Positions 38,626-62,600 of a stretch of 64,000 nt of DNA are shown here, piece by piece. Below the pieces are notes generated by a model. That model was not told where the DNA came from. It was given only the letters and a program-made list of their open reading frames with translations, and did not search any database. Made by a program: the position numbers and the translations under genes. The first letter of the stretch is position 1. The number at the start of each line of letters is the position of its first letter. The stretch comes from Lepas anatifera (lineage: Eukaryota > Arthropoda > Thecostraca > Lepadidae), in assembly GCA_034440635.1 (NCBI GenBank), contig JAOTON010000768.1, positions 1,024,501 through 1,088,500 of the forward strand. The letters are read 5' to 3'.

Positions 38626-41600
38626 CTGCAAAGCACAGGAAAGCCATCGATTCCCAGGGCTTAAAACAAGTGGAATATAAAACTTAACGTTCATTAGACA
38701 CTCGACATTTCTAGCTACAGTTACGCTGGCGATGACGACCTCCCCTGCCCTATGAGTGCTCTTTGTGCCACTCAACAGTCCCGTGAGTGCTCTCTGTGCC
38801 ACTCCCCAGCCCCGAGAGTGCTCTCTGCACCACTCCCCAGCCCCGAGAGTGCTCTCACCACCAGAGATGGCGGCCTCCCCAGCCCCGAGAGTGCTCTCAG
38901 CACCACTCCCCAGCCCCGAGAGTGCTCTCACCACCAGAGATGGCGGCCTCCCCAGCCCCGAGAGTGCTCTCTGCACCACTCCCCAGCCCCGAGAGTGCTC
39001 TTTGCACCACTCCCCAGCCCCGAGAGTGCTCTCACCACCAGAGATGGCGGCCTCCCCAGCCCCGAGAGTGCTCTCACCACCAGAGATGGCGGCCTCCCCA
39101 GCCCCGTGAGTGCTCTCACCACCAGAGATGGCGGCCTGCCCAGCCCCGTGAGTACTCGCACCACCAGAGATGGCGGCCTGCCCAGCCCCGTGAGTACTCG
39201 CACCACCAGAGATGGCGGCCTGCCCAGCCCCGTGAGTACTCGCACCACCAGAGATGGCGGCCTGCCCAGCCCCGAGAGTGCTCTCTGTGCCACTCCCCAG
39301 CCCCGTTGAGTACTCTCACCACCAGCGATGGCGGCCTCCCCAGCCGCGTGAGTACTCTCACCACCAGAGATGGCGGCCTGCCCAGCCCCGAGAGTGCTCT
39401 CTGTGCCACTCCCCAGCCCCGTTGAGTACTCTCACCACCAGCGATGGCGGCCTCCCCAGCCCCGTGAGTACTCTCACCACCAGAGATGGCGGCCTGCCCA
39501 GCCCATTGAGTACTCGCACCACCAGAGATGGCGGCCTGCCCAGCCCCGTGAGTGCTCTCTGTGCCACTCCCCAGCCCCGTGAGTACTCTCACCACCAGAG
39601 ATGGCGGCCTGCCCAGCCCCATGAGTACTCGCACCACCAGAGATGGCGGCCTGCCCAGCCCCGTGAGTACTCTCACCACCAGCGATGGCGGCCTCCCCAG
39701 CCCCGTGAGTACTCGCACCACCAGAGATGGCGGCCTCCCCAGCCCCGAGAGTACTCTCACCGCCAGAGTGTCGAAGTTGCCACAGACGTACAGGCAGCAG
39801 CGTGCCCGCGTCAGCGCCACATTCAGGCGGCGCCGGTCGCTGAGGAAGCCGATGCTGCCCTGGGTGTTGGAGCGCACGCACGACAGGAAGATGACGTCCT
39901 TCTCGCGGCCCTGGAAGCCGTCCACAGTGCGCACCTCCACCGGCAGCGGTGACCGGTGTTGCCTGTGCCTGCGCAGCAGCGCCAGCGCCAACTTAGCGGA
40001 TTGGCATGTAATGGCGATAAGGCTTGGCTCACCAATGGGTATGAAAAATGCGCTGGGGTCTCAGTACCAAATAACAGAAATGTGGCAATACATCACAGAT
40101 GAATTGATATAACCAAACAATACGAAGCGGCTGGCAACGGCCAGGAGAGGATATGGTGAGCGGCCTACGGCGATGCCTGCTGCTGCCGCGCACCTATCGG
40201 CCAGCAGGCTGAGCAGGTAGTGCTGCTGCTGGCTGTAGGGGGTGATGATGCCGATGGAAGGCTGGCGGTCCTGGCCGTAGGTCAGCTCCAGCACCAGCTC
40301 CGTCAGCCGCAGCACCAGGCGCGCCTCCTGCGGGTTGGTGAAGCTGCCCCTGTCCCACACACGCAGGTTACATCTGCACACTGGCAAACAGAGCGCCAGC
40401 GTGTCTCGGTCAAAGGATGCCCTCTATCAAAGGAACTTCAATCAAATTCTGAAACTCTGCACAATGAATACAGAAGACTACGGCATGATATTGGGATGAA
40501 TAGGGTGTTTCATCGTCAGCACCCCAGGCTAGGTCCCCATTTATCTCGAATAAACATGAATGTCATTGTAAGAAACGGAGCCGATGAATAAGAAAATCAA
40601 GGAGCTAAGTTCAGGCCATTCCCAAGTTGACACGCACCTTTTGCTTGGGTGTTTATGACACACATCATATACTCTTAGGTCATGTGCACACCTTGCAAAC
40701 CTTAGATACTGGTTTTAACCGTCTGGGCACACAGCCTGTCAAGCAGTGGTCAACTGCCAAATCGTCTACGAATGGCGTGCGAAGCTCCGATGGGCAGACT
40801 CGGGTTTAAATCACCTCCCAAATAATATAAAGCATTCGAGAAGCATACAAAATGAGGGCTCACGAGGTAATTTTGACCCAAAACAGAAACTGGTCGAAAC
40901 GCGATAGAACCTGAATAGTCCGAATAAAACCGCAAAGAACCGAATCATTCAAACAATTTCGGCACAGCTCTTCTTGGAAAAACATAACATAAATGTATGT
41001 AAAATAGCGCTTCAACAATTTTCACCGCCCTTGTAAATACTGAACACATATGGATGCGCGCTGCACAGACACGCGCTTGGAATCATAATGCTCTTTAAAG
41101 TAGCATAATCCATATCATAAACCAATATCAAATCATTGACCAACATCATGATACACTTTGTTTTATCAATTCATATCACAAGTCTCAAGAGAAAGGAATA
41201 TACTGGCTCCCTTGGAACTGACACTACCGATTCCGAGCCCGAAACAAAGAATTAAACCTCAGAACGTTAAACTTCAAAATAGTCTGCAGAATCCTTAGAA
41301 GGGGAAACGAACTGGGAACAATGGGACAGGACCGAATAAAGCTAAATCTTCCCAATTTCATTCGGAACGGAATGATAGAGATGACTTATTTGAAACTGTT
41401 CCCGAAAACACGCAATGGGATGTGAAGGGAACACTCTTTGGATACATTTTCCGGGACAAAAGGGACGGGACGGGACAGACTCGATCGGCACAAAGAGGGA
41501 TGCATATCAGAGTGATGTCCCACGTTGACCTCTCACAGTTAGAAGAGTTTCATGTGTATAACCGAGCCTGCCGCAGGGCATTTGACTGAGCCCGCGAGGT

Positions 41601-59600: not shown

Positions 59601-62600
59601 GCATGCCTTTACCTCTAGTGACCTTAAGAGCGACCTGACCAAGAAATGGTACACATGTTTTCTATAGAGAACTGGATGTGCTATCCAATGCCCTTTACCG
59701 TTTATCGTTATCTAGCGTGGTTCTCGAGATCTTCAGGGGAAGGTACCTGCTTACCCCTGTCAATGCACGTTTCAACACGCGAAGTGGAGGGAGGTCCTAA
59801 ACTTTTCTTCCCCCCATATTTTTCCGAGGCGGCCGAAGAACCTTCCGCGGCCGAAAAACGCTCAAGACTAAATTTGGGATAATTCATGACCGCGTCGATT
59901 GGTGAGACAATTTGGAAATCGGTCGATTACATTTTTACTTAAAGGGTTTCAAAGTCCGAACTGCATTCTGAGATCGCCACAATCCTGCATTCGCACCAGA
60001 TCACCTACATTATTGGCCGAGTGGTAACGCCATGGAGCATAATCGGTATGATGTCAGGGTTACCTCACATGAAGTTCAAGGTTATGTCATCACTTTCTAG
60101 GTCACTAGCACCAATGCTTTCGGACAGATGACGCTACCCATTATGACGTATATTCATAGTGAAAGTTACTCAATGTTGAGATCAATGTAATATGTCAATT
60201 TCAAAGGCCATGGGCGAAGGTCAAACTTTCATTTACCGCCAAACGGTTGCTATAGTGTACATTAAAGGGAATATATCAGATAATGACGTCATTGGTCAAT
60301 GACCTTGAATGTCACTGACCCCATTCAGATCCAATTTTATGGGACCTTCCCTCCATGACCTTAGTCCGCTTTTGGTGTATTCCCAACCTTTTCAGCACAT
60401 TTACGGCATTTCTCAGCAAGTTCCCAACACAATTTCGCCTTCATGACTCGTTTGACCATGAACATATTGACCTGGGTCAATGAACGTTGGCTGTAATGTA
60501 GACCACTATGGCCCTTACAAACCACCATACGGGTTCTTGTCTAGCCCTTATTGTTTCCATATCTCAAGGGAAGGGGGAGGGCACTTAATGACCCCGTCCC
60601 CTGCACGTTTAACCCAGACCACTCTCCACTGCGCATGTTAAGGACTTAATAAAACTGTTTCCACTTTGTTGCAGCACTTAGATTGGTCTACCTCCTAACA
60701 GACTGCCGCGCATGTCACGTGATGTTAACAATGGCAACGCTATCGTAACGTTGTCATGCTGCAAGTGGCACCCAAGCAGCCAGCCTTGTAATTACACGCG
60801 ATGCTTAGGCCAACCCCAGGCGAGCCACGATCTGCTTTGATACGATCATACATTGTAAAAAGGCTACATTTTTAATCGGAAAGATTAGAGGTGGAAACGA
60901 TATCTGGTTTCCAGATTTTCAGACTTACGTTGTTCATAAATAATCCTTTACAATTTTGATAAGGTGGTCCATTCCCTTTCACAGCGGGGGTTATATATAC
61001 GCAAATAGGTTCTAAGCGCACTAGGTGCAATACATACAGAAGCTCTGCAAGATGCACAAGAGAATTTGGCTGACGGGCGGCACCGTGGCTCGCTTGTTTT
61101 AAGAGGTGATCAGACCCGCCGCTCCACCACCATCTGAATGTGCCTTAACCCAGTTCAGCTGGTCGGGTAATGGGTAGCATGGGTGATGGGCGGTTAAGGA
61201 GAAATCCTGTTTTTCAAAGATTTTTATATTCTACACAGAGTAAAAATTTGTATTGGTTTTTCGTCCACATACAGGGATACAAAAATATTGAACAGTGATT
61301 TTATTCGCCATCCGTTATCACATGGCTATCTCAACTCGAGTGCCATCATGAGGATGCCACATTCTTTTCAAGCTCCGTATGCGAGTACATGACAGGAGAG
61401 GAAACTCACTCTCTGGGCGTGCGATTATTGGCGCTGTCCTGGACCACATTGTGCCACAGCTGGTGCAGCAGCAGCGGCTGGAAGGTGGCCACGTAGTCGG
61501 CGTGGCTCTGGTACTCCAGCAGCACCTGGCTCAGCGGCATGCCGTGCGCCACGTCCGGCGGCGGCCGGTGCTGGTCCTGCCGCTGCTCCTGCGCAGCACA
61601 ACGACTCGGCGTCAGACCCGTCCCGGGGTAGGCACGGCCGCTCTTGCGCAGCGCAACGGCCCCGCGTCAGACCCGTCCCGGGGTAGGCACGGCCGCTCTT
61701 GCGCAGCGCAACGGCCCGGCGTCAGACCCTCCCAGGGTAGGCACGGCTGCTCCTGCGCAGCGCAACGGCCGGCTCAGACCCGTCCCAGGGTAGGTAGGTA
61801 CGGCTGCTCCTGCGCAACGCAACGGCCCGGCGTCAACCCTCCCGGTGCTGGTCCTGCCGCTGCTCCTGCGCAGCGCAACGGCCGCGCTCAGACCCGTCCC
61901 GGGGTAGGCACGGCTGCTCCTGCGCAGCGCAACGGCCCCGCGTCGGACCCGTCCGGGTAGGCACGGCCGCTCCTGCGCAGCGCAACGGCCCGGCGTCAGA
62001 CCCGTCCCAGGGTAGGTAGGTACGGCTGCTCCTGCGCAACGCAACGGCCCGGCGTCAGACCCGTCCCGGTGCTGGTCCTGCCGCTGCTCCTGCGCAGCGC
62101 AACGGTCACGCGTCAGACCCGTCCCGGGGTAGGTACGGCTGCTCCTGCGCAACGCAACGGCCCGGCGTCAGACCTGTCCCAGGGTAGGCACGGCTGCTCC
62201 TGCGCAGCGCAACGGCCCGGCGTCAGACCCGTCCCAGGGTAGGCACGGCTGCTCCTGCGCAGCGCAACGGCCCGGCGTCAGACCCGTCCAGGGGTAGGTA
62301 GGTACGGCTGCTCCTGCGCAGCGCAACGGCCCGGCGTCAGACCCGTCCCGGGGTAGGTAGGTAATGCTGCTCCTGCGCAGCACAACGGCCCGGCGTCAGA
62401 CCCGTCCCGGGTTAGGTAACGCTGCTCCTGCGCAACGTGAGGGAGCCAAAATACCATCTGTGATTTATCTTTTAGATCTGTGATGACGCCCTGAGGGAGG
62501 AGGCTCATAAGTGATCCTTATAAGAAGGACTGGATAAACACCAAACCCAAAGGCTGGAAAGAAAATGCAGCCGAAAAAAATTGAGACGATTTGCACACGA

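Follow-up and report, generated by a model that had tools for sequence, protein, structure and literature searches.

Splice-junction minisatellites in a senataxin-like helicase gene of the barnacle Lepas anatifera: probable mirages outside amphioxus

A senataxin/Sen1-like superfamily 1 (SF1) helicase gene of the barnacle Lepas anatifera carries tandem arrays that span eight of its 30 modelled splice junctions: six donors (exons G, H, I, J, L and O) and two acceptors (exons B and F). The gene lies in a stretch of 64,000 nucleotides (nt) of contig JAOTON010000768.1 (assembly GCA_034440635.1, positions 1,024,501 to 1,088,500), here termed the window, whose numbering we use throughout. These arrays are probably minisatellites of the mirage type; on this reading, duplication across a junction would provide the seed, the splice site nearest the exon would still be used, and the extra copies would be intronic and multiply there. 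The same eight junctions had been named in a preliminary description made from the sequence alone, and they are recovered here both by overlap with repeats called by Tandem Repeats Finder (TRF) and by a search for copies of each junction.

The gene model has 16 exons (A–P) in a single open frame, with 15 introns (one more than first counted), and in its refined form encodes 1069 residues. Exon borders were placed manually, guided by GT/AG sites and open frames, with an in-frame check of the joined exons; the acceptor of exon O was shifted at the joining stage, and the donor of C and acceptor of D were reset after alignment with barnacle proteins. Agreement with relatives at C–D is therefore by construction, which is not so for the other junctions. 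The start of exon A in the model is the start of the open frame only and not necessarily the true 5′ end of the gene. Upstream of it, at 63811-63867, a nine-bp repeat in a different open frame reads by eye as polyproline, and the reading frame switches between this repeat and exon A.

Pfam, homolog searches and alignment used a protein with the older C/D boundary, nine residues longer than the refined model. It matches AAA_11 (1.1e-53) and AAA_12 (6e-50), as well as solved Sen1, Upf1 and related helicases. Its nearest named relatives are a putative senataxin of Amphibalanus amphitrite (42% identity over the searched region) and helicase sen1-like proteins of Pollicipes pollicipes (44% identity over 87% and 42% over 98%). 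At the array-bearing junctions its alignment with barnacle proteins shows no repeat-derived insertions; the fit is close at F, G, H, I and L and weak around B and J, and at O–P the Lepas protein is one residue longer.

TRF finds 11 clear minisatellites across 10 of the 15 introns, two of them in intron L–M (Table 1). An array was counted as spanning a junction when it covers at least 6 nt on each side. The spanning arrays reach 7–53 nt into the exon (L 53, I 38, H 29, G 25, F 16, J 8, O 8, B 7), so that of the 7–60 nt initially reported the lower figure stands and the upper one comes down. Arrays next to the acceptors of D, E and M had been said to abut the exon without clearly including the junction, and this is what we find: they stop short of it (Table 1), the gap and exon start are unlike the repeat unit (P 0.23, 0.13 and 0.40, respectively; 1000 letter shuffles each), and they were rejected as junction-spanning.

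Table 1. Helicase gene and associated minisatellites, in window coordinates
Feature	Position	Strand	Relation to exon	Unit and remarks
Senataxin/Sen1-like SF1 helicase gene	38488..63747	-		continuous frame, Pfam, barnacle homologs
Acceptor B array	61582..62434	-	exon starts 61588	~55 bp, spacings 53-59; AG + 7 nt exon
Array abutting acceptor D	57276..58530	-	27 nt from exon	28 bp; acceptor outside
Array abutting acceptor E	56745..56911	-	19 nt from exon	28 bp; acceptor outside
Acceptor F array	55784..56152	-	exon starts 55799	28 bp including 16 nt exon
Donor G array	54117..55148	-	exon ends 55124	25 bp = last 25 nt of exon
Donor H array	52044..52577	-	exon ends 52549	85-88 bp, ~29 nt exon
Donor I array	51093..51448	-	exon ends 51411	67 bp (one spacing 82), ~38 nt exon
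Donor J array	46317..46812	-	exon ends 46805	mostly 18 or 20 bp, 8 nt exon
Donor L array	42467..42917	-	exon ends 42865	58 bp = 51 nt exon + GTAACAG
Array abutting acceptor M	41930..42322	-	23 nt from exon	29 bp; acceptor outside
Donor O array	38740..39768	-	exon ends 39761	42 bp (spacings 73, 74, 104 too), 8 nt exon

The origin of the units is plainest where they carry coding motifs. The G unit, whose copies are spaced 25 nt (12 times), 49 nt (nine times) and four other distances apart, encodes VSLIHGPP of the Walker A region, and the exon part of the L unit encodes the helicase motif GDPAQLPPT; both pieces are conserved in barnacle proteins, which marks the exon as the source and the intron copies as derived. 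At acceptor B, two inner units hold 24 nt of exon, and the unit includes a branch-site-like CTGAC about 24 nt before the exon (both by eye), so that what is repeated there seems to be the entire 3′ splice module. The weakest exon match is that of O (3 seed copies, best 75%). TRF matches within arrays range from 70% to 99% (I 99%, H 96%, L 94%, G 70%); seven of the 11 arrays have diverged copies (70–86%), and E, H, I and L stand at 91–99%. This spread, together with the differing units, suggests that the arrays arose separately and at different times. They occupy 7–90% of the introns that bear them (O–P 90%, L–M 83%, A–B 61%).

For each junction a seed of 20 nt (12 exonic and 8 intronic, windows chosen after the arrays were known) was sought among the introns. 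Extra copies in its own intron number 13 for acceptor B, 11 for acceptor F, and 25, 5, 4, 12, 6 and 3 for donors G, H, I, J, L and O; the other 22 of the 30 junctions have none, and no more than one copy arose in any of 30 first-order Markov imitations made per intron. Copy counts vary with seed and threshold (J has 12, 23 or 21 depending on the test). In other introns the seeds have 0–1 copies for 29 of the 30 junctions, acceptor O having six. Introner elements spread related sequence across many introns of one genome; here, by contrast, each array is made of its own exon edge, and the near-absence of seeds from other introns rules out an introner or mobile-repeat origin, as the preliminary description had held from the differing units.

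The inner copies look like splice sites. GT or AG is retained in 103 of 106 (B 12/14, F 12/12, G 24/25, H 5/5, I 4/4, J 23/23, L 6/6, O 17/17), and among 80 donor copies scored by a simple count of matches to the donor consensus, 56 equal the used donor, one is better and 23 are worse. The distance to the used junction is divisible by three for 34 of the 106 copies, with no array biased; this is expected if the copies are spliced out, and it rules out repeats that lengthen the exon while preserving frame. In the remaining 72 cases, splicing at the inner copy would change the reading frame. Unit length modulo 3, over the 12 arrays of the placement tests below, is 0 in one, 1 in eight and 2 in three.

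In some arrays, certain exon letters set the exon copy apart from the rest. At some sites the letter is absent from every inner copy (H 0/5, I 0/4, O 0/17), so that multiplication in these three arrays appears to have run inside the intron after seeding. J has a private exon letter at -9, outside its 8 shared nt, and where B, F and L have differing sites, 1–3 inner copies carry the exon letter. Likeness to the exon has no clear gradient with distance from it in the seven arrays tested (I has too few copies): B gives rho 0.54 (P 0.046) and F, in the opposite direction, rho -0.51 (P 0.089), with P 0.27–0.52 for the other five.

Placement tests used 12 arrays, obtained by merging TRF rows within the gene that have a period of at least 10 and some length, overlapping shorter rows included; the weak array 48263-48359 is among them, and the microsatellite rows 45313-46267 and 47197-47229 were excluded. 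(Intron shares, leftover intron sequence and the unit likeness of D, E and M were computed on the 11 clear arrays.) When arrays are placed in their own intron under an exon-sparing null, with overlap of at most 20, 53 or 100 nt, 0.85, 2.17 and 3.41 spanned junctions are expected and 4, 8 and 8 are counted (P 5.7e-3, 7.8e-5 and 3.0e-3). Placement in any intron gives expectations of 0.30, 0.92 and 1.72 for the same counts (P 1.6e-4, 4.2e-7 and 4.9e-5). The distance from array edge to junction within the intron yields a Fisher combined P of 6.2e-12 over the 12 arrays, a test that is not independent of the overlap count because spanning arrays score a distance of 0. All these P values are post hoc, the gene having been chosen for this feature and the limits fixed after the arrays were seen.

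We propose that each array began with a tandem duplication whose breakpoints would lie in the exon and in the adjoining intron, copying the exon edge together with its splice site. The site touching the true exon would still be used, leaving the extra copies as intron and the protein unchanged, which is consistent with the protein alignment. Exon definition and the order of transcription would favour the exon-proximal site. Intronic copies may then multiply and homogenise by slippage or unequal exchange, with coding constraint holding the exon copy, a step that is shown in part. The excess at junctions could be explained if GC-rich exons duplicate readily and only junction-spanning duplications, shed into the intron, survive. 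The GC content of the arrays (0.64) is near that of the exons (0.67) and far from that of the remaining intron (0.46). On this ground we favour such survivorship at GC-rich exon edges over mutation linked to splicing; the same data fit both. Sequence and homology together support the view, already put forward in the preliminary description, that independent exon-edge expansions have enlarged the introns with the exon-proximal copy working. The arrays would lengthen introns that already existed and are most likely neutral.

Several points weigh against reading the arrays as mirage-type minisatellites. A single gene was picked post hoc, and the 53-nt overlap limit is itself derived from the data. 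No exon-private letter was found in the G array. O and J share just 8 nt with the exon, and B 7 in most units. Survivorship leaves the arrays near the acceptors of D, E and M, which lack the junction, unexplained. A GC-rich array outside the gene (34123-36060) has no recognised exon or junction beside it. Finally, naive nulls are not significant: circular shifts span a mean of 8.2 junctions (P of at least eight, 0.60) and free placement 7.3, as many as are seen. That a repeat-rich gene with many short exons has acquired its overlaps by luck is nevertheless very unlikely, in our judgement. These nulls were set aside as the main test because their placements destroy exons, letting arrays swallow them whole; P falls to between 5.7e-3 and 4.2e-7 once exons are spared, and the exon parts in G, H, I, L and F are copies of 16–53 nt. 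A verdict of 'more than chance' thus depends on the null chosen.

The strongest rival is that the junction itself initiates tandem duplication, through co-transcriptional structure, breaks linked to the spliceosome or U1, or sequence motifs, with enhancement in this lineage. The way array edges hug junctions would suit such targeting, as would the preponderance of donors over acceptors and the three further arrays lying 19–27 nt from acceptors. We hold it to be unlikely: coding-strand GC skew runs from -0.37 to +0.56 among the 12 arrays, with no common strand skew and hence no indication of a simple G-rich R-loop, and composition with survivorship could yield the same picture, the arrays being close to the exons in GC; one gene cannot separate the two. 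Far less probable is the gain of these introns through tandemly duplicated exonic sequence that holds AG|GT (the Rogers model). The G unit, wholly exonic in sequence and running GT...AG, does resemble what that model calls for, and fission yeast offers a case with repeated 24-bp exonic AGGT segments (PMC4974935). Yet the six donor-array introns hold no copy of their acceptor seed and the two acceptor-array introns none of their donor seed, and since the acceptor lies outside the donor-array units, intron gain at AGGT proto-splice sites finds no support here. Besides, 114–4135 nt of non-array sequence is left in the eight introns, and there are hints that I–J and J–K are of long standing: 15 additional residues interrupt the Amphibalanus protein at I–J and one Pollicipes protein diverges near J–K, oddities that look like mispredicted introns and would, if so, make these introns old.

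An assembler that added or collapsed copies might account for the near-perfect I array (99% matches), and an amphioxus mirage did seem misassembled in a draft genome (PMC3087553). For the set as a whole an artefact is highly improbable, with eight separate places affected and copies diverged in most arrays. Scarcely more probable is a function for the splice-site copies, which would serve as decoys or U1 platforms and so tune splicing or shield the transcript. Retention of the dinucleotide in nearly all copies would fit, but homogenised arrays would presumably retain it anyway; the ages and units differ, and seven of the 15 introns do without a junction-spanning array.

Other repeats occur in the gene and around it. 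Intron K–L holds, at 43265-44960, two head-to-tail copies of an element of ~840 bp that has TTAA and inverted ends CACGCGCATTGACGG / CCGTCAATGCGCG; the copies share the middle TTAA, and the element looks like a piggyBac-type miniature inverted-repeat transposable element. A diverged copy lies, by eye, in intron B–C near 58960-59800. In intron J–K, ~950 bp of microsatellite runs (CT- and AC-type, 45313-46267) extend to within ~23 nt of the exon K acceptor. The array at 34123-36060 has a 34-bp unit, repeated 57 times with 90% matches, that holds a donor-like TGGGTGAGC on the + strand. Positions 1-33000 contain decayed open reading frames of non-long-terminal-repeat retrotransposons, with reverse transcriptase by Pfam at 14788-15219 and, from homologs carrying PF00078, at 26176-27363, and endonuclease at 27972-28502 (Pfam). 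A search with one reverse transcriptase frame gave 690 proteins, and those with species names among the 120 listed belong to several phyla. No second host gene was recognised among the 10 of the window's 144 open reading frames scanned with Pfam, which gave two matches, both to retrotransposon domains, which leaves the window without a recognised control gene.

If the reading as mirage-type minisatellites is right, it carries the mirage phenomenon from cephalochordates to an arthropod, with one gene supplying eight separate cases of different ages, the copies being almost identical in I, H and L and strongly diverged in G. Such a gene could allow tests of intron lengthening, of spliceosome choice among up to 25 near-equal sites, and of whether exon-edge tandem duplications are targeted or merely survive. 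We are doubtful of a wider, more tentative proposition: that in this crustacean lineage introns grow chiefly by ongoing exon-edge duplication, a genome-wide mirage process outside chordates in which arrays set intron length.

The work on amphioxus Adh3 may, reportedly, describe several introns of one gene. A paper on amphioxus globin genes describes tandem copies of exon–intron boundaries on 5′ and 3′ sides, termed mirages after the Adh3 work, with many of them keeping AG/GT and the cluster edges escaping homogenisation; according to its authors splicing seems regular, as judged for the globins by reverse transcription polymerase chain reaction (PMC3087553). Mirage units there measure 10–72 bp in Adh3 and 150–160 bp in the globins BflGb6 and BflGb9 (PMC3087553). 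From this range, Adh3 seems to hold more than one mirage, and occurrence in several introns may therefore not be new. Further amphioxus cases are PGBD5 and troponin C (PMC3902484). The earlier statement that no such pattern had been described consequently does not hold for the kind, since amphioxus mirages share its architecture at donors and acceptors. Outside amphioxus, a search limited to an open-licence collection found no report of junction-spanning arrays among the titles, abstract openings and excerpts listed. These include intronic minisatellites in an earthworm metallothionein and an abalone TSSK1-like gene, where a splice site within the unit is not stated in the excerpts; a Daphnia tandem-repeat paper, which states that units longer than 8 bp are much less common in introns than in other sequence and whose excerpts have no use of 'splice'; and two barnacle genome papers, with no use of 'tandem' or 'minisatellite' in the main text consulted. 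The kind is already known from amphioxus, the search found no report for this lineage, and it is the density in one gene that keeps the interest.

A second comparison is intron gain through tandem duplication, for which one case in potato crosses a boundary and fission yeast has repeated exonic segments (PMC4974935). As in the barnacle gene, these examples (ATP2A1, the potato RdRp and the fission yeast repeats) involve an intron–exon boundary or AGGT, and the fission yeast duplications likewise come in several copies (PMC4974935). They differ in that they give rise to a new intron, whereas here one end of the intron grows and the other splice site lies outside the unit. The amphioxus mirages are closer. 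In both, the unit spans an exon–intron boundary and holds exon sequence (at the eight spanned junctions here, not at D, E and M), both donor and acceptor boundaries are duplicated, and splice signals are kept in the copies. What differs is the host: amphioxus is a cephalochordate, and here the arrays occupy eight of the 30 junctions of one barnacle-like gene.

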